Source: Bdellovibrionales bacterium
Lineage (GTDB): Bacteria; Bdellovibrionota; Bdellovibrionia; Bdellovibrionales; Bdellovibrionaceae
Direction of reading: 5' to 3'
NCBI GenBank assembly: GCA_018266295.1
Contig: JAFEAQ010000011.1
Span: 1,029,626 to 1,093,625, forward strand
DNA length: 64,000 nucleotides
Shown: positions 4,718 to 53,917 of the stretch, piece after piece
Layout: each line of letters begins with the position of its first letter
How positions within the stretch are numbered: the stretch's first letter is position 1
Program-made: the position numbers and the translations under genes
Notes under the pieces: generated by a model
Database searches by the model: none
Seen by the model: only the letters and a program-made list of their open reading frames with translations
What the model was told of the DNA's origin: nothing

Positions 4718-5446
4718 ATGTTGTACGGAAAACGAATCTACGAACCTCAGTCGCGTTTGTCTCACAATCGGTCTCAGAAGATGATTCTGAACAAGGCCTT
4801 CCAGTACAAGTACACGGTCTTTTTGATGACCGCTGTCCTCGGCGGTGCGCTGCTGTTCTTCATTCCGGCGTACTACTTCATCAGTCAGAACTACACTCTC
4901 TTTACAAATCTTGCTTATGATACGCAACCGGCTCTGGTGACTCACCTGGAGCGCGAAGTGGTTTGGCTTGGCGTCTTTATGGTCCTTAGTCTGGTCATCA
5001 TTGGCGGCTTCACACTCGTCGCCGGCCTTCGTATGACAAAGAACCTTCTGGCTCCGCTGGTGCAAATGGAAAAGCACATGAAAGAGCTCATGTACGGTCA
5101 CTGGCATATTCCTGATTACAAAATCACCAATGAAGACGACTTCCGCGATCTGGCGATGACGTACGATTACTTCTATCGTTCATTGAAAGCCAACACTGAA
5201 GCGGAGTTGAAACTCATCGAAAAGCTTTCGATCGATCCACAAAATCGCGAAGCTTATGCGGCTTGGAAAAATTTAATCACGATCAAGCGTTCACGCTTAG
5301 GTTTACAAGAGCTGCCATTTGAAGAATTCACGGTGCAACCGTTGTCACGCAACGGTCCTGATTTCGAAGCCGAAAAAGCGAAGGCGGCGGCTAACGGTCC
5401 CGACGTAGTGTCGATCGAAGCTGGGCGTCGGCGTCGCGTTTCTTAA
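4718..5446 (+). CDS. Two-helix membrane protein with HAMP domain, no output domain
   Basis: 242 residues. A basic N-terminus (MLYGKRIYEPQSR) leads to helix 1 (about 35-58), a short periplasmic loop, helix 2 (about 83-105) and a HAMP-type linker (LRMTKNLLAPLVQMEKHM ... DFRDLAMTYDYF). The tail of about 80 residues matches no kinase, cyclase or chemotaxis domain. It therefore resembles the front half of a sensor without an effector and may signal through a partner. GTCGATAA (4702-4709) lies just before the ATG at 4718 with no ribosome site between, suggesting a leaderless transcript or a later start at Met22 (MILNKAFQYK). The last 56 bases overlap the end of convergent smpB. Confidence 0.75.
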   Translation: MLYGKRIYEPQSRLSHNRSQKMILNKAFQYKYTVFLMTAVLGGALLFFIPAYYFISQNYTLFTNLAYDTQPALVTHLEREVVWLGVFMVLSLVIIGGFTLVAGLRMTKNLLAPLVQMEKHMKELMYGHWHIPDYKITNEDDFRDLAMTYDYFYRSLKANTEAELKLIEKLSIDPQNREAYAAWKNLITIKRSRLGLQELPFEEFTVQPLSRNGPDFEAEKAKAAANGPDVVSIEAGRRRRVS

Positions 5447-9069: not shown

Positions 9070-10109
9070 TGTTTGTTATTGAAATCTTGGGGAAGGCTTT
9101 GCGGAGAAGGCCCAAGATCCAATGTAGAAACTTCGCCACGATTCAGGCGCAAAACACCAACGTAGCCAATCATCGCTGCATTATCAGTGCAGTATCTGAG
9201 CGGCGGAATCACAAGCTTAAAACCTTTGCGCTTTGCCCAGTCTTCGGCCCGCGCACGCAAACGCGAATTCGCACTCACTCCACCCGTTAGGATGACACGT
9301 TTCGCTTTAAACTTCTTAGCGGCTTTTTCTAACTTAGCGATTAAAACGTCCACGATCGCTTCCTGGAAAGAGGCGCAGAGGTCCGGCAAATTTTTTTGCA
9401 CTTCCTCAGCTCCCATCTGTTCAAGCAAGCGCTGACCGGAAGATTTCAAACCCGAGAAGCTCATGTCGAAGGTGTCGTCGTGAATCATGCTGCGCGGGAA
9501 ATCGTAAGCTTTCGGATTTCCTTTTTGCGCTTCTTTATCAACACGCACGCCGCCTGGAAAACCAAGCCCCGCCATCTTCGCAAACTTATCGAAAGCTTCA
9601 CCGGCCGCATCGTCTTTGGTGGTGCCGAGCACTTCGTACTCGCCGATGCCTTTGATGTGATACAAACTCGTATGACCGCCGCTGATTGCAAGACCCACAT
9701 AAGGATAATCAAAATCCTCAGGTGGCGCGTACTGCGCATCTTTCAAGAAAGGCGCAAGCAAGTGTCCCTCAAGGTGATTCACACCAATAAACGGAATCCC
9801 CTTGGCCTGAGCGATGCTTTTTGCAGTAATCAATCCGACGATCAAAGACCCCACGAGGCCCGGGCGATTGGTCACCGCAATCGCAGGAATATCTTTCCAC
9901 GTCATGTTCGCTTTTTTCAGAGCTTCTTCAATCAGGGGAATCAAGGCTATCGAGTGATTGCGGCAGGCGATCTCTGGAACAATTCCGCCGTAGGGCTCAT
10001 GTTCCAGGTCTTGGCTCGCAGAAACGACCGAGTGAACCCAGCCTGTGCGTTCAACAACAGCTACAGAGGTATCATCACAACTCGTTTCAATCGCGAGAAC
10101 GCGGTCCAT
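9066..10109 (-). CDS. tsaD: tRNA N6-threonylcarbamoyltransferase TsaD
   Basis: TsaD is the catalytic subunit that transfers the threonylcarbamoyl group to A37 of ANN-decoding tRNAs. At 347 residues it has family length. Visible signatures are AIETSCDDTSVAVV at the N-terminus, the metal-binding HLEGH (H112 and H116), ISGGHTSLY, the GEAFDKFAKMAGLGFPGG phosphate region and LTGGVSANSRLR near the C-terminus. It lies between the cpoB-like gene and rsmA in one leftward operon. Partner genes tsaB, tsaC and tsaE are not in the window. Confidence 0.96.
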   Translation of the reverse strand: MDRVLAIETSCDDTSVAVVERTGWVHSVVSASQDLEHEPYGGIVPEIACRNHSIALIPLIEEALKKANMTWKDIPAIAVTNRPGLVGSLIVGLITAKSIAQAKGIPFIGVNHLEGHLLAPFLKDAQYAPPEDFDYPYVGLAISGGHTSLYHIKGIGEYEVLGTTKDDAAGEAFDKFAKMAGLGFPGGVRVDKEAQKGNPKAYDFPRSMIHDDTFDMSFSGLKSSGQRLLEQMGAEEVQKNLPDLCASFQEAIVDVLIAKLEKAAKKFKAKRVILTGGVSANSRLRARAEDWAKRKGFKLVIPPLRYCTDNAAMIGYVGVLRLNRGEVSTLDLGPSPQSLPQDFNNKQ

Positions 10110-10144
10110 TTAGTACTCTTTATTTCAAGCCCCAAAGGGGCCCA

Positions 10145-10849
10145 TTATTTTTTATTAAGACCTTTTAAACGGATCTTAGCTTTTTTCGCTTCGTTGGAAT
10201 CCGGAGACTTCGTCACAAGCTCATCATAGAAAGTCTTTGCTTCGTCTTTCATACCCAGTTCTTGGAAAGACACACCCATCTTATAGGTCGCTTCGTTGAA
10301 CTTTTTGCCCTTAGGGTTTTCATCACGATATTTCTGATAATTCAAGATCGCTTTTTTCCAATCCTTCTGGTCGAAAGCCTCTTGGCCAAGCTCATAGGAG
10401 CTTTTCTTGGCTTCTGTCGCTGCTTTTGCCTGGGCTGCTGACGCTTGGGCTACGGCTGCGGCTTTTTCAGCTTTCAAAGCATTTACTTCGGCATTTAATT
10501 GGAAAACGGTTTTTTCAAGATTGCTGAGACCTTCTTGCAAAAGAAGGATCTTCTTATTGGCATCCGCAGAAGAATCGGCAGCGAACTTTTTCGCCGCTTC
10601 GGCCTCTTGCGAGCCTTGGCCTTTTTGGTGTTCAAGCACTTCTACACGGCCGCGAAGGCCACGCATATCTTCTTCGATATCAGAGAAGCGGCTTGCGGAA
10701 TCCGCAGAGGCCTTCTGCATTTTTGTGACTTCTTGCTGAATCACTTGTTTTTGTTCGGTTTCACGCACGTCCGTACGGGTTTTCAAGCAGCCAGTAAGGC
10801 CGAGGGATAAAAGCCCAACGTATGTAGTTGCAGGAAGTAACCACTTCAT
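10145..10849 (-). CDS. CpoB/YbgF-like lipoprotein of the Tol-Pal region
   Basis: 234 residues. A signal peptide ends in lipobox LTGC (Cys21), unlike enterobacterial CpoB, which is a soluble periplasmic protein. Residues about 30-150 form a heptad-rich coiled coil (IEEDMRGLRGRVEVLEHQ and following). The C-terminal 85 residues hold TPR units (SYELGQEAFDQKDWKKAIL, FNEATYKMGVSFQELGMKDEA). Coiled coil plus TPR is the CpoB/YbgF layout, and proximity to pal supports it. CpoB couples Tol-Pal constriction to septal peptidoglycan synthesis. It overlaps the DUF4398 gene by 4 bases. Confidence 0.8.
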   Translation of the reverse strand: MKWLLPATTYVGLLSLGLTGCLKTRTDVRETEQKQVIQQEVTKMQKASADSASRFSDIEEDMRGLRGRVEVLEHQKGQGSQEAEAAKKFAADSSADANKKILLLQEGLSNLEKTVFQLNAEVNALKAEKAAAVAQASAAQAKAATEAKKSSYELGQEAFDQKDWKKAILNYQKYRDENPKGKKFNEATYKMGVSFQELGMKDEAKTFYDELVTKSPDSNEAKKAKIRLKGLNKK

Positions 10850-44650: not shown

Positions 44651-45766
44651 ATGAAAAAGAAAGTGGCGGCAAAAAAGCCGAAGGAAAAAGCAAGCCCGGC
44701 GAAAAAGCCTGTTACGAAGCCCGTTGCAAAAAAAGCAACTTCAGCTAAGAAACCGGTCAAAGCCAAAGCCGTCGTCGCGGAAATCGTAGACGATGACAGC
44801 ACACTTGCGCCTGAACAGGCCGCCCCCGAGATTGGCAAAGCCTATGCAATGCCAAACGAACGCGAAATAGAAGAAGAGTTTGGTCTCAACGACGAGCCGA
44901 CGAAAGGCTTGGTTCCCACCGCAGATTCTAAAGCTATTACTTCGACCTCGGATCCTCTAGCGCTTTATCTTGCTGATGTCCGCAAGTATCCCGTGCTCAG
45001 CAAAGAAGAAGAGCAAGAAGTCGCTAAGAAATATTTCGAAACCAAAGATCCTGAAGCTGCACAAATCCTGGTGAAATCAAATCTTCGTTTCGTCGTCAAG
45101 GTTGCCGCTGAGTATTCCAAGTTCGGCGCGAAGATGATCGACCTTATCCAAGAAGGCAACGTGGGACTCATGCACGCTGTACGCGAGTTTAATCCGTACA
45201 AAGGAGCGCGCCTGATCACCTACGCTGTTTGGTGGATTCGCGGTTACATTCAAGAGTACTTGATGCGCCAGTATTCTATGGTCCGCATCGGTACGACTCA
45301 GAACCAAAGAAAACTTTTCTATCAATTGCAAAAAGAGAAAGACGCTCTCGATGCTATGGGACAGTCTCCGGACATTGCCCTCCTGAGCTCTCGCCTCGGC
45401 ATTCCTGAAGATGAAGTGGAGCAAATGGCTCAGCGAATGTCAGGCCGTGATATTAGCCTCGATCGTCCCTTGGACGACGACTCGGGTGGCACGCTGATGG
45501 ATTTCCAAAAATCGACATCAGACATGAGTGTCGATGAGCGCATTGCTCACGAAGAAGAGCTCGAGTTTCTGAAAGAGAAATTGAAAGAGATCCGCCCAGA
45601 ACTTTCTGAGCGCGAAAGAATTATTCTCGACGAACGCATTCTGAATGACGAACCGCTGACTCTGCAAGAGATCGGCGAAAAGCACGGCATCACACGCGAA
45701 GCCGTCCGTCAGATGGAAGTCCGCGTGATGAAAAAAATCAAAGCCAAAATGGAAGAGCTTAAGTAG
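44651..45766 (+). CDS. rpoH: Heat-shock sigma factor RpoH with basic N-terminal extension
   Basis: 371 residues. The sigma core starts near residue 101 (DPLALYLADVRKYPVLSKEEE, region 1.2), continues with region 2 (LRFVVKVAAEYSKFGAKMIDLIQEGNVGL, YAVWWIRGYI), the RpoH box QRKLFYQLQ (219-227), which identifies it as sigma-32 type, and region 4 (LTLQEIGEKHGITREAVRQMEVRVMKKIKAKM). The first 100 residues are extra: 1-40 are Lys/Ala/Pro repeats like a histone H1 tail, 41-100 acidic. Known RpoH proteins of about 285 residues lack this. Confidence 0.9.
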   Translation: MKKKVAAKKPKEKASPAKKPVTKPVAKKATSAKKPVKAKAVVAEIVDDDSTLAPEQAAPEIGKAYAMPNEREIEEEFGLNDEPTKGLVPTADSKAITSTSDPLALYLADVRKYPVLSKEEEQEVAKKYFETKDPEAAQILVKSNLRFVVKVAAEYSKFGAKMIDLIQEGNVGLMHAVREFNPYKGARLITYAVWWIRGYIQEYLMRQYSMVRIGTTQNQRKLFYQLQKEKDALDAMGQSPDIALLSSRLGIPEDEVEQMAQRMSGRDISLDRPLDDDSGGTLMDFQKSTSDMSVDERIAHEEELEFLKEKLKEIRPELSERERIILDERILNDEPLTLQEIGEKHGITREAVRQMEVRVMKKIKAKMEELK

Positions 45767-45837
45767 GGCGGTCTGTTCCGTCGCCCGACAAGATAACCAG
45801 CAAGTCTTGGCCCGCCTCTTGAATAATGGGTTTGGTT

Positions 45838-46827
45838 ATGAAACCAAATCAATTTATTTTCGCATTAAGTTCCGTAGCATTTACACTTTTTGTTAGCTGT
45901 CCAACACTTGCACAGCAGGCCGCCCCGAGCGACCTCTGCCAAGAGTTCACAGCTGGCTGTCAGATTAAAAAGATCGCGGTCAAAGGCCCCATGGACACCG
46001 AAGACCAGTATGCCCTGGATGTCACCGTAGGAGCTCTGACAGAGGCGCAATTCAACAGCCTCTATACACGTTATGCAACAAAGCCTACGAAGGCCTTTGA
46101 TGCTCGCCACGCTTATAAACTTGCTGAGTTCTTGCCGGCCTTTGCGCAAAAACTCAATGGCAAGATTTTGATTCCTCACTCTGTGCCGGCGCCTGCCGCT
46201 CTTATCCAAGCCCTGCGTGCGCAAGGTAAGAAAGCCGCGAACATTGCAATGGTTGATGGCAACTGCCACTCTGTGAGCTGGCAATGGGTTAACTACCTCC
46301 AAGGCCGTGGCACTGAAGAGGCCCTGCTGACTCTGGCTGATGGCGAGAGCATGAGTTTGGATGCTTCAGTAGACTATAAAGATATTCAGCCCGGTGATGT
46401 CCTTGTGATTAGCGGCACCGGTGGGTTTAATCAAGACGGTTCAGTTTTGCACTCGGCGGTTTACCTAGGCCACGGACTCATGTTTGAAAAACCAAATCCA
46501 GGTCAAGAATATGTGTATCGCATGAGCTATCTTGCTGACATCGTTGGTAAGTATAAAAAAGTGGATGCGCAGGCGGAGTTCCATTTCTATCGCCCGAGTA
46601 AGAATTCGCATCTCTTGCCAACTCTGACAGAGCAATTGTCACTCGTTTCAGATCAGAATCAAAAAGCCATGTCTGTGAATCTGTCTTCTGTACCCGCGGC
46701 GATTCTAAGCACTCATATTCTGCAGGAAAGCTGGGATAATGCAAAAGGCGAAAGCGTTTTCACTCTCGGCCGCATTTTGAAAGCGAGCGAAGTAAATCCG
46801 GCGAAATTTAAAAACGTCGGTCCTTAA
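45838..46827 (+). CDS. Secreted NlpC/P60- or CHAP-like cysteine peptidase (tentative)
   Basis: Start taken at Met at 45838 (MKPNQFIFALSSVAFTLFVS, signal peptide). 329 residues. The candidate catalytic Cys is in VDGNCHSVSWQWVNYLQGRG and the candidate His in SVLHSAVYLGHGLMFEKPN, with GDVLVISG between. This C...H order and spacing suits papain-like NlpC/P60 or CHAP folds that cut peptidoglycan peptides. The N-terminal 100 residues match nothing I know. Terminator copy 1 follows. Confidence 0.6.
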   Translation: MKPNQFIFALSSVAFTLFVSCPTLAQQAAPSDLCQEFTAGCQIKKIAVKGPMDTEDQYALDVTVGALTEAQFNSLYTRYATKPTKAFDARHAYKLAEFLPAFAQKLNGKILIPHSVPAPAALIQALRAQGKKAANIAMVDGNCHSVSWQWVNYLQGRGTEEALLTLADGESMSLDASVDYKDIQPGDVLVISGTGGFNQDGSVLHSAVYLGHGLMFEKPNPGQEYVYRMSYLADIVGKYKKVDAQAEFHFYRPSKNSHLLPTLTEQLSLVSDQNQKAMSVNLSSVPAAILSTHILQESWDNAKGESVFTLGRILKASEVNPAKFKNVGP

Positions 46828-46841
46828 ATCTTAATACCCAC

Positions 46842-46880
46842 AAAATGAAAAAGGCCCCGGCGATTGCCGAGGCCCTTTGT
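46842..46880 (-). terminator. Terminator, direct-repeat copy 1 (39 bases)
   Basis: On the minus strand the hairpin (arms GGGCCTCGGC and GCCGGGGCC with loop AATC) is followed by TTTTTCATTTT. It lies 17 bases after the stop of the gene at 46898-48313. The 39 bases 46842-46880 are identical to 48469-48507. Confidence 0.85.
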
Positions 46881-46897
46881 AAGTTATAGAATAAAAA

Positions 46898-48313
46898 CTA
46901 CTTACTGTTTAAAAACTCAAACTTCGAAGTATAAGAACCGCAAGTCTTCACCATGTTACCGACAAGTTGTTTGGCCAAATCTCGATGAGTTGTCATAGTA
47001 GAAGCAGAAATCTCACTTGGTACAAGTCGACAGTCAGAGGGCGCTACCTTTCCACTCGCATTTAGTCTTTTTACCGCTTGGGCAATTAGGTGGTCGAGCG
47101 CTTGAAGATCTTTTTTCTTTTGGACAATAGAAAGATTGTTGTAGTACCCATCTTTCTTTCCTTGGGCCAATTCAGCATCTAGAGATGCCTGCTTAGATAC
47201 CTTTAGCCCCATTTGATAACAATATTCCAATTCATCTTCTGCAGCCTTGCACTCTTTGGTGTTCTCTAGTGCCGCTTTTTTTGCAACCTTACTACGCAAC
47301 TCGGCTACCCTATTCTTTCTATCAGCCTCCAAGCTTTCAACAAGAGTTTTAATTTTCGCATCTTCACCAGGTTGTTCCGGAGGTTTGATCCAATAATTAA
47401 TCTCTCCATTAACGCTCATTGACTCAAAGCCGATGCGACCTGCTACCTCGCCGGGCGCTACACACGTTAAACTGTCTCCGTAGAAGGTCTCACAGGGATC
47501 TGCACGATTTTCATTTGTCCTTCTAAAGCCAGTCCCAGGATGGCAAAGTGTTTCGAGACGGTCTGCCTCTGGCTTAGTGAAGCGATTATTCGCATTAACT
47601 TGACCTTGATTACAAATTTCATATTTAACTTTGCCCGCAACTCGATCGGCAGCCTTTTTCTTTGCGACATCAAGCTCTATCCTTTGAGCTTGACCCTTTA
47701 CTTCTTTGCTTTTTTCATACGCAATAAGCTGTGCAGACCAATCCACTTTTGGTGGTGATACTTTATCCTTGGCGTAACAAGGGCAGACTCTTTTGAAATC
47801 CAACCATTCGCGTACATCTTGTGCTTGACCTTCATTTGTGACCGATCCAGCACTTTCAAGTGTCTCAAGCTTTGGTCCGACGCTAGTCCATTTCAGATCG
47901 CAATTGAAAGGCTCCGTACATTTCTGAGAGGAAACTTGAGCAACTTCCGGCGAAGCTTTTAGAGCCTCTTGGGCTGGCGCGGACGTTACTGCTTTCTGAG
48001 TCGGCACCTTAACCGTCTCAAGCTCTTTCTTCAATTTCAACCCCTCTGCCTGAAAGTCTCTCCCTTTTAAGGCACTTGTGATATATGCAGATGCGAGGCC
48101 CGATTTGCTTAAATAGCATTCGCATTCCTTTTGGTATTTTATAACTGCAATTGCTTTCTTGATATCTTCCTTTGTCGTCATGGGATTTGCTGGTATTGAG
48201 GTGTTGACCAAAGCGTTGCCACGTTCTTCGCATTTAGAATTTTCTTCTGGCGTACATGACCACGCCTTTGCGCTATGTATTGCGAAAATCAATATCATTA
48301 CAGATAATTTCAT
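46898..48313 (-). CDS. AT-rich Cys-rich secreted protein of unknown function
   Basis: 471 residues with a signal peptide (MKLSVMILIFAIHSAKA). Many Cys occur in short patterns (SCTPEENSKCEERG, KECECYLSKSG, CTEPFNCDLKW, RVCPCYAKDK), and long charged helices lie between (LVESLEADRKNRVAELRSKV). AAAGG precedes the ATG by 7 bases. Two hand-counted stretches are only 33% and 35% G+C (47581-47640, 48121-48180), against 55% in a sample of the upstream gene (46261-46320). With flanking 39-base direct repeats this looks like an acquired gene. No family is recognised. Confidence 0.75.
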   Translation of the reverse strand: MKLSVMILIFAIHSAKAWSCTPEENSKCEERGNALVNTSIPANPMTTKEDIKKAIAVIKYQKECECYLSKSGLASAYITSALKGRDFQAEGLKLKKELETVKVPTQKAVTSAPAQEALKASPEVAQVSSQKCTEPFNCDLKWTSVGPKLETLESAGSVTNEGQAQDVREWLDFKRVCPCYAKDKVSPPKVDWSAQLIAYEKSKEVKGQAQRIELDVAKKKAADRVAGKVKYEICNQGQVNANNRFTKPEADRLETLCHPGTGFRRTNENRADPCETFYGDSLTCVAPGEVAGRIGFESMSVNGEINYWIKPPEQPGEDAKIKTLVESLEADRKNRVAELRSKVAKKAALENTKECKAAEDELEYCYQMGLKVSKQASLDAELAQGKKDGYYNNLSIVQKKKDLQALDHLIAQAVKRLNASGKVAPSDCRLVPSEISASTMTTHRDLAKQLVGNMVKTCGSYTSKFEFLNSK

Positions 48314-48468
48314 ACGTATACCTTTAGTGTGGTTGTACTAGCACGATAGCATACGCTCATGTGAAGTCATCGGTTATGAATAAACCAAGACTAATTTGCC
48401 TGAGTTGCGGCCCAAATCCAATACTCATGTCTAAATACTTCTTTCAGACAATAATCCAAACGGCGGTA

Positions 48469-48507
48469 AAAATGAAAAAGGCCCCGGCGATTGCCGAGGC
48501 CCTTTGT
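48469..48507 (-). terminator. Terminator, direct-repeat copy 2 (39 bases)
   Basis: Identical to copy 1 at 46842-46880. It lies 33 bases after the stop of the stalked lipoprotein gene (48541-49968) and is read on the minus strand as hairpin plus TTTTTCATTTTT. Confidence 0.85.
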
Positions 48508-48540
48508 TATGTGGAGTTTACCAGAAACTCCTTTTAGCTG

Positions 48541-49968
48541 TTATTTACAAGGTCCTACATACCCAGCAACGTTGCTGTAGTTGAGGATTTTTGCGCCACC
48601 GTGCAAGCACACTTTGCCGGCGCTGTTTTTCAAGACTTTCACAGTACCGCCGTAGATGTGTACTACACCGGCTTGTGCAGTCAATTCATCCAACTGCTGA
48701 GTGATGATCACTTTCTTACCTGCAGTTGAAGTGATTTTGCCGATTGCTCTAGCTCTGATACAAGCGTTACCCGCCATACCATTCAAGCTACCAACAGTCA
48801 GAGCATTGACTTGTACGATACCTGCTACACCGTTGATAGTACCGATGTTTGCAGCGTGATCGACACGTACGCTACCGCTCATATTGCTGATAGAACCGAT
48901 GTCACCAGAAACTCTGACATAAGCTGCACCTGCTGAACCAGAGATTGAGCTGATGTACATTGCAGAGTTAATGCTGAAGCCACCAGCGATATTTGAAACT
49001 TGCAAGTTACGAATATCACCAACAGTTTGCTTACCGGCTTTGTTCGCCAACCAGAGGTCTACATTCGAAGCATTCACTTGCAATGAATCGAAGGCCGCAG
49101 TGTTTTTGAACAGAGCACACTCACCAGTATACGGATCAGCATCATCTACAACTGGTGTAGGAGCTGGCGTAGGTGTTGGAGTCGGAGTCGGGTTATGACC
49201 GCAACCGCAACCTTTGCAAGGAGTAGGTGATACTACTGGCGTAGGTTTTGGAGTAGGACTTGGAGTCGCTACTGGTGTTGGACTAGGAGTTACAACTGGA
49301 GTAGGCGTAGCTACTGGAGTTGGGCTCGGAGTCGATACAGGAGTAGGACTTGGTGTAGCTACCGGAGTTGGTGTCGCAACTGGCGTAGGAGCCGGAGTTG
49401 GATCAACAACAGGAGTCGGTGTTGCTACTGGAGTTGGATTTGGTGTTGGAGTCGACACAGGCGTAGGCACTGGTGTCGGAGTCGAAACCGGAGTTGGTAC
49501 TGGAGTAGGATCTACAACTGGCGTTGCAGTCGCTACTGGAGTAGGAGCCGGAGTCGGATCAATAACTGGAGTCGCCGTAGCTACCGGAGTTGGAGCTGGC
49601 GTTGGATCAATAACTGGAGTTGCCGTTGGAGCTGGTGTCGGAGTCGGAGTTGGCACAACAACTACTGGAGTTGGTGTTGGTTCAACGACAGGTGTCGCCG
49701 TTGGAGTAGGCTCAACAACCACAGGAGTCGGCGTAGCCACTGGTGTAGGGTCTACAACGGGTGTTGGTGCCGGCGTTGGCGTGGTATCCACCACAGGAGG
49801 AGGCACATCTTCTTGTCCTGGGATCCAGCCGTCAGCTGCTGGCGCCATGCTCATAATGGAGGATTGATCCCCTGCTTGCATACCACCCATATTGTTACCA
49901 CAGGCAGTAAGGCTCAAAGAGAGAACGGAGCCGATCAGAAATTTGTTTGAGACAATAAATGCTTTCAT
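48541..49968 (-). CDS. Stalked surface lipoprotein with Pro/Thr stalk and 17-residue repeat solenoid
   Basis: 475 residues. The lipobox SLTAC places lipid on Cys23. Residues 63-275 are Pro/Thr/Ala/Val repeats (TPAPTPVA, TPTPVV types), an extended rigid stalk. A Cys cluster CKGCGCG (251-257) sits near its end. The C-terminal domain (284-475) consists of 17-residue units such as IGTINGVAGIVQVNALT, VGSLNGMAGNACIRARA, LDELTAQAGVVHIYGGT and VKVLKNSAGKVCLHGGA, bracketed by Cys284 and Cys474. This reads as a beta-solenoid. GGAGGGG precedes the ATG. A paralogous domain is at 50348-51046. A surface adhesin or sensor is plausible; the function is unknown. Confidence 0.78.
   Translation of the reverse strand: MKAFIVSNKFLIGSVLSLSLTACGNNMGGMQAGDQSSIMSMAPAADGWIPGQEDVPPPVVDTTPTPAPTPVVDPTPVATPTPVVVEPTPTATPVVEPTPTPVVVVPTPTPTPAPTATPVIDPTPAPTPVATATPVIDPTPAPTPVATATPVVDPTPVPTPVSTPTPVPTPVSTPTPNPTPVATPTPVVDPTPAPTPVATPTPVATPSPTPVSTPSPTPVATPTPVVTPSPTPVATPSPTPKPTPVVSPTPCKGCGCGHNPTPTPTPTPAPTPVVDDADPYTGECALFKNTAAFDSLQVNASNVDLWLANKAGKQTVGDIRNLQVSNIAGGFSINSAMYISSISGSAGAAYVRVSGDIGSISNMSGSVRVDHAANIGTINGVAGIVQVNALTVGSLNGMAGNACIRARAIGKITSTAGKKVIITQQLDELTAQAGVVHIYGGTVKVLKNSAGKVCLHGGAKILNYSNVAGYVGPCK
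49144..49782 (-). repeat. Imperfect tandem repeats coding for the Pro/Thr stalk
   Basis: About 640 bases of degenerate 6- to 24-base repeats encoding T-P-x-P and V-x-T-P units within the lipoprotein gene. The third codon positions vary among copies, so selection on the protein rather than recent slippage seems likely. Such tracts can still change length between strains. Confidence 0.8.
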
Positions 49969-50115
49969 TGGGACTACCCCTCCACATTAAGCAATATACG
50001 CAAGTCCTGGACCAAGCCGGATGCGGACGTTCCATCTTCTTAAGTGTGCTCAGCTATTTAGGATTCTCATTGTGGAAACTCTGAGGAAATGATCAGTCCT
50101 TAGTCGTGGAGAAAC

Positions 50116-50125
50116 TTTGATCAAA
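50116..50125. other. Gap 49969-50347, little content
   Basis: The 379 bases between the two lipoprotein genes hold the ribosome site of the stalked protein, a perfect 10-base palindrome TTTGATCAAA (50116-50125) and the terminator at 50281-50311. A 68-residue frame at 50093-50299 has no ribosome site and an arginine-rich, unnatural composition; I do not call it. Confidence 0.4.
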
Positions 50126-50280
50126 AAATCGAAGATTGGTTTTGTCCTCAAATACAATCTGCGATGAGGAGCCTCTTTGTTTTAGGTCGGAATTTCTGAT
50201 TTTTCGTCGAAGCTCTCGGCAAAAGCGCCCTTGCAGAGCTATCTCAATGTGAGGATTCAGAAAAAACTGTCTAGAAAATG

Positions 50281-50311
50281 AAAGAGCCCGGTGTCTCACT
50301 CCGGGCTCTTT
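50281..50311 (-). terminator. Terminator after the second solenoid lipoprotein
   Basis: The 11-pair stem AAAGAGCCCGG / CCGGGCTCTTT with a 9-base loop, about 36 bases after the stop at 50348. On the minus strand it is followed by CATTTTC. Confidence 0.8.
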
Positions 50312-50347
50312 GAAGTCTTATCAGAACGGGATGCCCTTAAGGGGGAC

Positions 50348-51046
50348 TTATTGGCACTCACCCACGAATCCAGCGACATTGCTATAGTTCAAAACCTTGG
50401 CTCCGCCATGCAGGCAAATGCCGCCGGCGTTATTGCGAACCATTTTGATCACACCGCCATAAACGTGGATCTTACCGGCTGTATTTGAGATCTCCTCAAT
50501 CTCTGCCGCGATCACTTTTGTACCGCCGGCTGCACCGGAAATCGTTCCAACTTTCATAGCATGAATACAAACTTTGCCGGCCAAATTTGAGATCGATGAA
50601 ATCTCATTGGCATTGGCTTGAACGCCACCTGCGGCACCGTTGATACGCACGATCTTGTCGGCCGCGCGAATCATGATGTGACCCGCGATCCCTTGCAGAT
50701 CGACATTCTTAGCAAGATCAATCTTCAGAGCGCCCGCACGACCACTAAGAACTACGTCTTGCGCCGAGCTTGGAATCATCATCGGGATTTGCATATCTTT
50801 AAACACAGAACAAGCGCCGGAATAGGCGACATTGGGATCATCAGGAATTTCCTGAGCCGGTTGATTGCCATTTTCATCCGTTGACGGAACACCGTCTTGT
50901 GGAAGTTCCATTTCAGCATCTCCCGCTTTCAGAGATGTTGCCCCTGGCACCGCCGTGAAGTTCGTCTTGCCGCAGTTCTGGAATCCGATGATCATTACCG
51001 TGAGCAAAGTAATGAACACGATTCTTTGTGGTTTTTTGATATACAT
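50348..51046 (-). CDS. Solenoid lipoprotein, stalkless paralogue
   Basis: Start at the ATG at 51046 (MYIKKPQRIVFITLLTVMII) with GGGGGA upstream; 232 residues. The lipobox GFQNC puts lipid on Cys25. A short acidic linker (about 40-75) replaces the long stalk. Residues 79-232 carry the same 17-residue units as the neighbour: VDLQGIAGHIMIRAADK, IVRINGAAGGVQANANE, ISSISNLAGKVCIHAMK, IEEISNTAGKIHVYGGV and IKMVRNNAGGICLHGGA. The domain is capped by Cys79 and Cys231. The last 20 residues are nearly identical in both proteins. The two genes probably arose by duplication. Confidence 0.78.
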   Translation of the reverse strand: MYIKKPQRIVFITLLTVMIIGFQNCGKTNFTAVPGATSLKAGDAEMELPQDGVPSTDENGNQPAQEIPDDPNVAYSGACSVFKDMQIPMMIPSSAQDVVLSGRAGALKIDLAKNVDLQGIAGHIMIRAADKIVRINGAAGGVQANANEISSISNLAGKVCIHAMKVGTISGAAGGTKVIAAEIEEISNTAGKIHVYGGVIKMVRNNAGGICLHGGAKVLNYSNVAGFVGECQ

Positions 51047-51208
51047 TGTTTCCCCCGGATTCCCCTCATTAAAGCAAGATGGTTGCCACATATGAGCCCT
51101 TGTAAACAAACGTGGGCCGTCCCGGGCGCCCCGTCCTGCCGATTCCGTTTCCATCGTTTAAAAGATTTAAACAAAATCAAGGATTCACAATTGCATTAGC
51201 TCTCTGTC

Positions 51209-52060
51209 ATGTTTTACTTAGCTCGCTTTATCATATTCATCGCGATTATAGGTTCTTTTGGGATCGGAACAGCCCGCGCTGCCGATGCCTTTTTGGGGAA
51301 TCTGTACAATGATTCGACACTCTCGTTTGGTAAGCCGGCGCCAACGTCCTCGTTGCCTTCAGACAAAATACGATTGTTCGTTTGGAACATCCACAAAGCT
51401 GAGGATCAAAGACTTTCTCAAGACTTCGGTGATCTGACTTTCGGTGCGGATCTGGCCCTCTTTCAAGAAGCCGTTAGCCGACCTGACTTCATTCAAAGCT
51501 TAGTCGCCGCAAATACCGATTTCGAGTGGACGATGGCGAAGTCTTTCCAGCTTTTTGATTTTAGCTTTACCGGCGTTGCAACCGCTTATCGCGTGAAGCC
51601 CCTGGGTGAAGATGTGATTATCTCTAAAGTCACAGAGCCTGTGACTGAAACCCCTAAGACGATCTTGCTCTCTGTGTTTTCAATCAACGGTACTTACGAC
51701 ACACTTTTAGTGGCGAATATTCATGGTATTAACTTCGTGGGACTTGAGGCTTACAAAGTTCAAATGAACCAGTTAGCTGAAAAGCTTCGCCAGCATCAAG
51801 GCCCAATGATCGTAGCCGGTGATTTTAATACCTGGGAGCCTGCTCGCTTGGCTTATGTTAAGAGCCTCTTTGAACCGCTGGGTTTAAGCCAGGTCAACAC
51901 TCCTGTCGCAGGAATGCTCGATTTAGATCATGTATTCCTGCGCGGAATGAAAGCGAACTTCATTTTTGATCTTTCTCATATCGATTCTTCAGACCATGCC
52001 CCATTGATGGTTGATCTAATTTTTGAAAATAACAAGGTGATGATGTATGAAGGCAACTAA
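51209..52060 (+). CDS. Secreted endonuclease/exonuclease/phosphatase-family hydrolase
   Basis: 283 residues with an N-terminal signal (MFYLARFIIFIAIIGSFGIG). The EEP fold is indicated by RLFVWNIHKAED (Asn), ADLALFQEA (catalytic Glu), NIHG, IVAGDFNTW (Asp, Asn), LDLDHVFLRG and SSDHAPLMVDL (Asp, His). All key residues are present, so it should be an active metal-dependent phosphoesterase. Whether it cuts DNA, phosphoinositides or sphingomyelin-like lipids is not clear. It overlaps the next gene by 14 bases. Confidence 0.85.
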   Translation: MFYLARFIIFIAIIGSFGIGTARAADAFLGNLYNDSTLSFGKPAPTSSLPSDKIRLFVWNIHKAEDQRLSQDFGDLTFGADLALFQEAVSRPDFIQSLVAANTDFEWTMAKSFQLFDFSFTGVATAYRVKPLGEDVIISKVTEPVTETPKTILLSVFSINGTYDTLLVANIHGINFVGLEAYKVQMNQLAEKLRQHQGPMIVAGDFNTWEPARLAYVKSLFEPLGLSQVNTPVAGMLDLDHVFLRGMKANFIFDLSHIDSSDHAPLMVDLIFENNKVMMYEGN

Positions 52061-53105
52061 TAAGAACCTCCTCGTCTTAGTCGGTTTCGCTGTGGCTCTG
52101 AATGCCTGCGATATGAAACGCAATCTCGATGATATGCATGACCAGACCGCCGAGATGAATAAAACCACTCAACAGATGAACGAAACAACGGGCAAAATGA
52201 ATGAGCGCACTGAAGGCCTCGAGAACGCTACTGGCGAGCTCTACGATGCTCTTCGCCAAGGTGACTCATTGGCTGCCCGCCGTGCCGCTTTAGACAATAT
52301 GCTGAAAGCAGATGAACCTGCTCGCAAGCTTTCGGAAGCTGCTAAATACTTCATGTCTTTTGAATTCCAGTTCTGGACAAATGCCAACGAAGATAAAGGC
52401 GAAGAAAAGCGTATCGACCTTGCAACACTGGCTGCGCGTGAGTTCTTTAAAGATGTATATCAATTCATCCCTAACGGTGTGATGAAGCCAGATCCATTTG
52501 CTGACCAGATTATCTCTACGGATAAAGGCAACCTCATTGCTTGTTTGAATGCACTTGCGGTGACGACTCACTACTTGAATCCGAAGCAAGAAAAGCGCAT
52601 TAAAGAAAATCCTTCCATGAAATCGATTTCAATGTACAAGATGATCGAAGAGTCTTTGCTTGCAAAAGCGTCGATTGAATCCGGCGATAAGAAGATCTCT
52701 GATTATCCGGGCTATGTTTTCGAAATTCTTTCTAACGAGCCTGCGGCCATTTACTTGATGCAAGCTCGCTATAATTACCTAAGCGCCTTGTTCCTCGGCC
52801 GCGCGACTCCGGTGGCTCACAGCAAATGGACGGGAGTTAAGTTCTTTGCGAAAAAATGGACTCTGGATTTGAACAGCTTTAACGCGGCTCAAATCGAGGA
52901 GTTTAATATGTTCTTGGACGGAGCTTTGAAAACGAAGAAGATCCTTCAACAAATCGGCGCGAAACCAGAAATGGATTTCATGCTGAAGAGAATGATCAAC
53001 AATATGACTCTGGTGGATATTACCAGCAATCCACGAACGACTTCCGAGAAAGTATCTAACTTCCGCGAAATCGCCGCTCGCTTGACGGAATTAAAGAAGT
53101 TCTAA
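52047..53105 (+). CDS. Lipoprotein with N-terminal coiled coil
   Basis: 352 residues. The lipobox LNAC gives Cys21. Residues 25-75 follow a clear 7-residue pattern (MHDQTAEMNKTTQQMNETTG, then MNERTEGLENATGE), predicting a trimeric or dimeric coiled coil as in Lpp-like proteins. The remaining 270 residues are mostly helical and conserved-looking (KYFMSFEFQFWTNANEDK; IYLMQARYNYLSALFLGRAT), with no recognised family. It overlaps the EEP hydrolase gene by 14 bases, so the two are translated together. Confidence 0.75.
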   Translation: MKATNKNLLVLVGFAVALNACDMKRNLDDMHDQTAEMNKTTQQMNETTGKMNERTEGLENATGELYDALRQGDSLAARRAALDNMLKADEPARKLSEAAKYFMSFEFQFWTNANEDKGEEKRIDLATLAAREFFKDVYQFIPNGVMKPDPFADQIISTDKGNLIACLNALAVTTHYLNPKQEKRIKENPSMKSISMYKMIEESLLAKASIESGDKKISDYPGYVFEILSNEPAAIYLMQARYNYLSALFLGRATPVAHSKWTGVKFFAKKWTLDLNSFNAAQIEEFNMFLDGALKTKKILQQIGAKPEMDFMLKRMINNMTLVDITSNPRTTSEKVSNFREIAARLTELKKF

Positions 53106-53131
53106 GCGACCACGAAAGGCCGCCTAGGTGA

Positions 53132-53917
53132 CTAGGCGACTTCGAGCTCACCCGCGCCGATGCTTTGTTGCAGCTTCACACGAAGTCTCGCAACAGCCTG
53201 GGCGTGGAGCTGAGATACGCGGCTCTCTGTGACTCGCAGAACCTGACCGATCTCTTTTAAGTTCAAATCTTCAAAGTAATACAAAGAAAGAACCAAGCGC
53301 TGACGCTCAGGCAATTCTTCGATGGCCTGAGCCACGACTTCTTTGATGGACTTGATATTGAGCTGATTGAACGGATTATTCAGCTTAGAACCTTCCAAAA
53401 GGTTCAAGATCGACTTGTGGTCGTCATTGCTGAAGGATTGACTGTTATCAATTGAAAGCAAGCTCACAGGACGAACTTGGTTCACGAGATCATGGAACTC
53501 GTCGACAGAAATATTCAACGCCTTAGAAACTTCCTCGTCGGTCGGCGCACGACCGAGCTCGTTTTCTAGGTTTGCCATTGTCTTATCGAGAAGTTTTGCT
53601 TTGTCACGAATAGAGCGTGGAACCCAGTCTTGAGCGCGGAGCTCATCGAGGATCGCACCACGAATACGGAACTCGGCATAAGTTTTAAATTTATTATCAC
53701 GAGTGGGATCGTATTTATCGATGGCATCCATCAAGCCGATCACACCGGCAGAGATCAAGTCATCCAATTCGATATTTGAAGGAAGGCGCACGGCAATCTT
53801 TTGTGCGACGAACTTAATCAGCGGAGCGTATTCCTTAATCAACTCATCCTTTTGTTTCTGGGTGAGTTTCTTAGGCTCCTCTTTGTACTTTTTCAGCAAT
53901 GCCACGTTTTTCGCCAT
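53132..53917 (-). CDS. fliA: Flagellar sigma factor FliA (sigma-28)
   Basis: 261 residues. Region 2 (LIKFVAQKIAVRLPSNIELDDLISAGVIGLMDAIDKYDP, then YAEFRIRGAILDELRAQDWVPRSIRDK) and region 4 (LSLYYFEDLNLKEIGQVLRVTESRVSQLHAQAVARL) are the FliA/WhiG pattern. It directs late flagellar and chemotaxis genes, recognising GCCGATAA-type -10 elements; three matches or near-matches occur at 2.6, 3.8 and 4.7 kb. It is the last gene of the leftward flagellar block, 60 bases after flhG. An anti-sigma flgM is not seen here. Confidence 0.93.
   Translation of the reverse strand: MAKNVALLKKYKEEPKKLTQKQKDELIKEYAPLIKFVAQKIAVRLPSNIELDDLISAGVIGLMDAIDKYDPTRDNKFKTYAEFRIRGAILDELRAQDWVPRSIRDKAKLLDKTMANLENELGRAPTDEEVSKALNISVDEFHDLVNQVRPVSLLSIDNSQSFSNDDHKSILNLLEGSKLNNPFNQLNIKSIKEVVAQAIEELPERQRLVLSLYYFEDLNLKEIGQVLRVTESRVSQLHAQAVARLRVKLQQSIGAGELEVA

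Follow-up and report, generated by a model that had tools for sequence, protein, structure and literature searches.

A gene bounded by two identical copies of an intrinsic terminator in a Bdellovibrionales genome: probable insertion at the terminator

Main finding

In a 64,000-nt stretch of DNA from a Bdellovibrionales bacterium (hereafter the window), a gene that we call X is enclosed by two identical copies of a 39-nt terminator. The best explanation, to which we give a probability of roughly 0.6, is that X entered a single terminator between the convergent genes at 45826 and 48541 and left an identical 39-bp copy on each side. The event seems to have been a single, recent insertion in which a terminator was duplicated, and not the work of a new kind of mobile cassette. 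Both the insertion, as opposed to the copying of a terminator next to a resident gene, and the route by which it took place are what we infer from the present state of the locus. The features concerned are as follows.

45767..53131, no strand: variable interval from a convergent sigma-factor gene to fliA, 7365 bp here
45826..46827, plus strand: convergent neighbor, 333 aa, with a weak resemblance to NlpC/P60; one of the two genes that would share a terminator in the putative empty site
46842..46880, minus strand: left repeat copy, intrinsic terminator of gene X, hairpin at 46849-46878
46881..48468, no strand: putative inserted segment minus one repeat copy, 1588 bp, 43.1% GC
46898..48313, minus strand: gene X, coding for an orphan protein of 471 aa, Cys-rich and putatively exported
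48469..48507, minus strand: right repeat copy, intrinsic terminator of the gene 48541-49968, hairpin at 48476-48505
48513..48531, plus strand: weak terminator-like hairpin, 58 nt behind the gene 45826-46827 in the putative empty site
48541..49968, minus strand: neighbor, 475 aa exported protein with a Pro/Thr repeat; also uses a terminator copy; tandem paralog of 50348-51154

The duplicated terminator

The two copies of the 39-nt sequence, AAAATGAAAAAGGCCCCGGCGATTGCCGAGGCCCTTTGT, lie 1627 bp apart and differ at no position. The first-pass annotation, made from the letters of the DNA, had described this perfect direct repeat with exact coordinates, and the match lies well outside chance; the 22-nt core had no counterpart, even at 3 mismatches, in any shuffled version of the window. 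A search of the whole 4.22-Mb genome for further copies, as the annotation had proposed, returned the two exact ones and one related palindrome with 3 mismatches, and none of the 65 other family genomes searched contained the 39-mer when up to two mismatches were allowed in the core. Nor did the region match any Rfam family.

The rarity of such a pair can be judged from 788 kb of the genome, consisting of the 64-kb window and 724 kb of contig C11. Leaving aside low-complexity sequence, only three direct repeats of at least 20 nt lie within 8 kb of each other in this sample, and the 39-nt pair is the longest of the three and the sole terminator among them. It is also the only identical pair among the 268 terminators predicted there, the next best match to it scoring 47 as against 78. 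Given the copy number, the lone identical pair of terminators and the few nearby repeats, the duplicate therefore falls far outside the normal pattern of this genome. The copies agree even at the loop and tail positions that would be free to vary, and this suggests that the event was recent.

Read on the minus strand, each copy contains the terminator AAAGGGCCTCGGCAATCGCCGGGGCCTTTTTCATTTT, with a 13-bp stem that includes one G-U pair, a 4-nt loop and a T-rich tail, and the repeat folds at -23.2 kcal/mol (z about -7). Its plus-strand form has a broken stem and a short run of T, so that the repeat serves mainly the minus-strand genes, X and 48541-49968. In both copies a GC-rich stem followed by a T run stands just behind a stop codon, as in other intrinsic (rho-independent) terminators with their GC stem and U-rich tail, and the earlier description of a functional-looking terminator behind both genes thus holds, in the form of a strong predicted minus-strand terminator in each copy. 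Unlike the other terminators in the genome sample, these two are letter-identical at a distance of 1.6 kb, which was otherwise not seen there.

A terminator of similar appearance follows the paralog at 50348 at the same distance from the gene. Descent of the 39-nt terminator from a common source with this one was considered; the alignment score of 32 is matched by 10 of the 268 terminators, both repeat copies included, and is not decisive.

Gene X and its composition

X is the only plausible gene of the putative insert. Judged by eye, its N-terminus, MKLSVMILIFAIHSAKA, resembles a signal peptide, and the protein contains 16 cysteines. The GC content is 43.7% for X, 43.1% for the insert and 40.6% for the 155 bp upstream of X within the insert. 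In comparison, the window as a whole stands at 48.1%, and 478 genes have 48.0% on average (sd 3.5). Among these 478 genes X stands at the 2.7th percentile for codon score, the 5th for GC3 and the 9th for GC, an atypical composition of the kind used as a sign of lateral transfer. The first-pass annotation had called the gene clearly AT-richer and had suggested a look at codon usage; the atypical character stands and extends to the codons, whereas its figures of 33-35% against 55% were wrong.

Of the genes measured between the sigma-factor gene and fliA, X has the most atypical codon usage. The neighbor at 45826 and the paralog at 50348 have ordinary codon scores, as does the gene at 48541 in spite of its low GC3, which may be due to its Pro/Thr repeats. 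The genes 48541-49968 and 50348-51154 belong to an exported family, one of them with a long linker of PTPVAT-like repeats, and further copies of the family are found on contigs C6, C14 and C19 of the same genome.

No relatives of X were found in a GTDB pattern scan, in IMG/VR or among phages and plasmids, and it matched no family in Pfam, PHROGs, NCBIfam or PADLOC. The 141 genomes of the order contained no convincing relative; the sole match, of 63 residues in one other genome (E 0.002), falls in a helical stretch and is probably due to chance. On these sequence comparisons X is an orphan, lineage-specific gene within the genomes and databases searched. A model of the protein folded alone, without an alignment, had a pLDDT of 44 and was unusable. 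A suspected internal repeat of two modules around CxCY did not rise above shuffled sequences (241 of 1000).

The variable interval that holds X

X lies between two convergent genes, the sigma-factor gene at 44651 and fliA at 53132. In six of the 12 relatives that carry both genes on one contig, the interval, measured between the matches, is 25-95 bp long; in four others it is about 0.5-1.0 kb and in the remaining two 5.2-6.8 kb, and the longer intervals have unrelated contents. None of the six genes in the interval of the window has a match at that place in any relative compared; both genes that flank X, at 45826 and 48541, are absent from the site, and the neighbors of X are partly orphans too. 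With the interval short in half of these relatives and filled here with unmatched genes, private genes thus accumulate at this place, X being one of them. Several of the short intervals in relatives contain a hairpin followed by a T run, as read by eye.

The matching interval in L016, L019, L021, L026, L029 and L033, with unrelated contents in each, marks a recurrent place of insertion in the Bdellovibrionales. In L033 it holds an open reading frame (10107-10814) with the motif DNHVHLLVYY, which by eye resembles a REP-associated Y1 transposase. The L026 contig is titled as a Streptomyces griseus metagenome-assembled genome, but it has aspS, the sigma factor, fliA, flhG and flhF in the gene order of the Bdellovibrionales, so the name of that record is probably wrong.

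How the terminator may have been duplicated

The insertion that we favor would have started from two genes, 45826 on the plus and 48541 on the minus strand, that converged on one shared terminator. X would have joined at this terminator and left a 39-bp copy on either side, the right copy continuing to end the old gene at 48541 and the left copy ending X, so that X would have come as a complete transcription unit with its neighbors undamaged. The most likely route is a homology-dependent join at the 39-bp terminator, which might have been a single crossover with a donor that carried X and the same terminator in circular or tandem form, or template switching at the hairpin; such a join through 39 bp of homology would need nothing special. 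Beyond the 39 nt the flanks resemble each other no better than shuffled sequence does, on either side, which is what a junction limited to the repeat would leave. When the flanks are joined without X and with one repeat copy, a plus-strand hairpin with TTTT comes to lie behind the gene at 45826, which at present has no good plus-strand terminator nearby; the placement is weakly suggestive of an insertion. The first-pass annotation had likewise read the locus as an insertion at a terminator that left a copy on each side, and this remains the best reading, with partial support from the unique exact duplicate, the orphan gene, its atypical codons, the variable locus and the dissimilar flanks. Against the insertion count the absence of both flanking genes from the site in relatives and the partly orphan character of the neighbors of X; moreover, nothing in the sequence points to a donor or an enzyme, and the case is a single one.

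The main rival is that X was already present and took over a copy of the neighbor's terminator, either in place of its own or as a new one, through short gene conversion or template switching, with no insertion. We consider this a possible but clearly less probable origin. It would explain why the repeat coincides so closely with the functional terminator (the 30-nt hairpin and its tail), as copying of a selected unit would give, and it agrees with the fact that nothing marks X as younger than its neighbors at the locus. A conversion of 39 bp limited to the terminator would however be unusual, and the lack of another identical pair among the 268 terminators argues against it, as does the codon usage of X, more atypical than that of any other gene measured in the interval.

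Alternatively, a transposition-like reaction or a staggered break may have led to the capture of a DNA fragment, and fill-in to a target duplication of 39 bp. The direct repeat exactly at both ends of the 1588-bp insert is what such a reaction would leave, but no transposase was found in the insert and no Ku in the genome, and the insert lacks terminal inverted repeats, its ends matching no better than shuffles (164 of 500 were as good). Among target duplications 39 bp counts as long, and we regard this origin as unlikely.

The probability drops further for a cassette mobilized in trans, in which a site-specific recombinase would use the terminator hairpin as its site in the way that integron integrases use attC. 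In its favor, the hairpin forms an imperfect palindrome that stands as a direct copy at each end of the segment, and five tyrosine recombinases over the Pfam cut-off are encoded in the genome, all of them on other contigs. No integron integrase reaches the cut-off, the best match to TIGR02249 scoring 70.8 bits against 265 (all 14 control genomes were likewise below it), and there is no attC core (GTTRRRY or RYYYAAC) within about 50 nt of either copy. The genome has no further copies of the site, and no second gene bounded by terminators in this way was found in 788 kb of it or in about 1 Mb of relatives, where nearby direct repeats were mostly coding repeats or tandem copies. The many dispersed palindromes of REP or BIME elements have no counterpart in two exact copies and one 3-mismatch site in 4.22 Mb. 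The suggestion of an attC-like or REP-directed event in the first-pass annotation thus found no support. A dedicated cassette system is likewise unsupported, since no integron integrase, attC core, transposase, terminal inverted repeats or Ku was found and the copy number is not that of a REP element. A mis-join of the assembly at the 39-mer is hardly credible: the genome is a draft of 23 contigs, but the contig is 1.26 Mb long, completeness is 99.99% and 39 bp is shorter than normal reads.

Comparison with known systems and significance

In Bdellovibrio bacteriovorus Tiberius, as compared with HD100, single strain-specific hypothetical genes are inserted at tRNAs, single insertion-deletions occur elsewhere, and the large inserted areas are mostly of below-average G+C (PMC3539863). 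Bdellovibrio sp. NC01 has eight regions of probable transfer origin, of which four are low in G+C (PMC7137782). The locus of X fits this picture of gene gain, with a single, private hypothetical gene at a particular site and a tendency to low G+C as in Tiberius and HD100 (PMC3539863), and the twist is the duplicated terminator. Unlike the single genes at tRNAs, X sits at the terminator of a protein gene, and its site is marked by the 39-bp duplicate. No description of a gene insertion that duplicates a terminator was found in the literature searched.

Islands inserted by tyrosine integrases at the 3' ends of genes are flanked by att direct repeats that restore the gene end. The locus of X shares with them a short direct repeat at both ends and an intact 3' signal of the resident gene, but its insert holds one gene only and no integrase, and what is repeated is a terminator instead of the end of a coding sequence or tRNA. 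Integron cassettes likewise combine one gene with a hairpin-forming site (attC) that is repeated on both sides, whereas the locus of X has no integron integrase, attC core motifs or array.

Genes gained between convergent neighbors must leave those neighbors undisturbed, and the locus would be a clean example in which the join itself gave the newcomer its terminator. With this locus the stretch from the sigma-factor gene to fliA also stands out as one at which predatory bacteria acquire private genes time and again. As a single case in which no machinery was found, the pattern stays a curiosity. That intrinsic terminators between convergent genes serve Bdellovibrio as landing sites, through a hairpin-directed route that copies the terminator, seems to us quite improbable; if it were true, each incoming gene would arrive already insulated.

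Other repeats in the Bdellovibrionales

In L024, from a relative, a hairpin-forming repeat of 36 nt from a GGTACC family follows the sigma-factor gene closely at 1595-1630 and recurs 3.6 kb further on at 5154-5189. The gene end that it adjoins corresponds to that in the window, but the repeat is a different one; it was considered as a second terminator-bounded case and left uncounted as a dispersed element. Elements next to the sigma-factor gene of L024 have the start AAAAGGTACCAG in common with a REP-like element of the genome that carries X, in which GGTACC itself is rare. This element, AAAAGGTACCAGGTCGCTTTTCNGAATTGACTT, is dispersed on contig C11 at about 75297, 91220, 91970, 641605, 641704 and 911918 (in L051, L052, L070 and L086), and some of its copies form inverted pairs.
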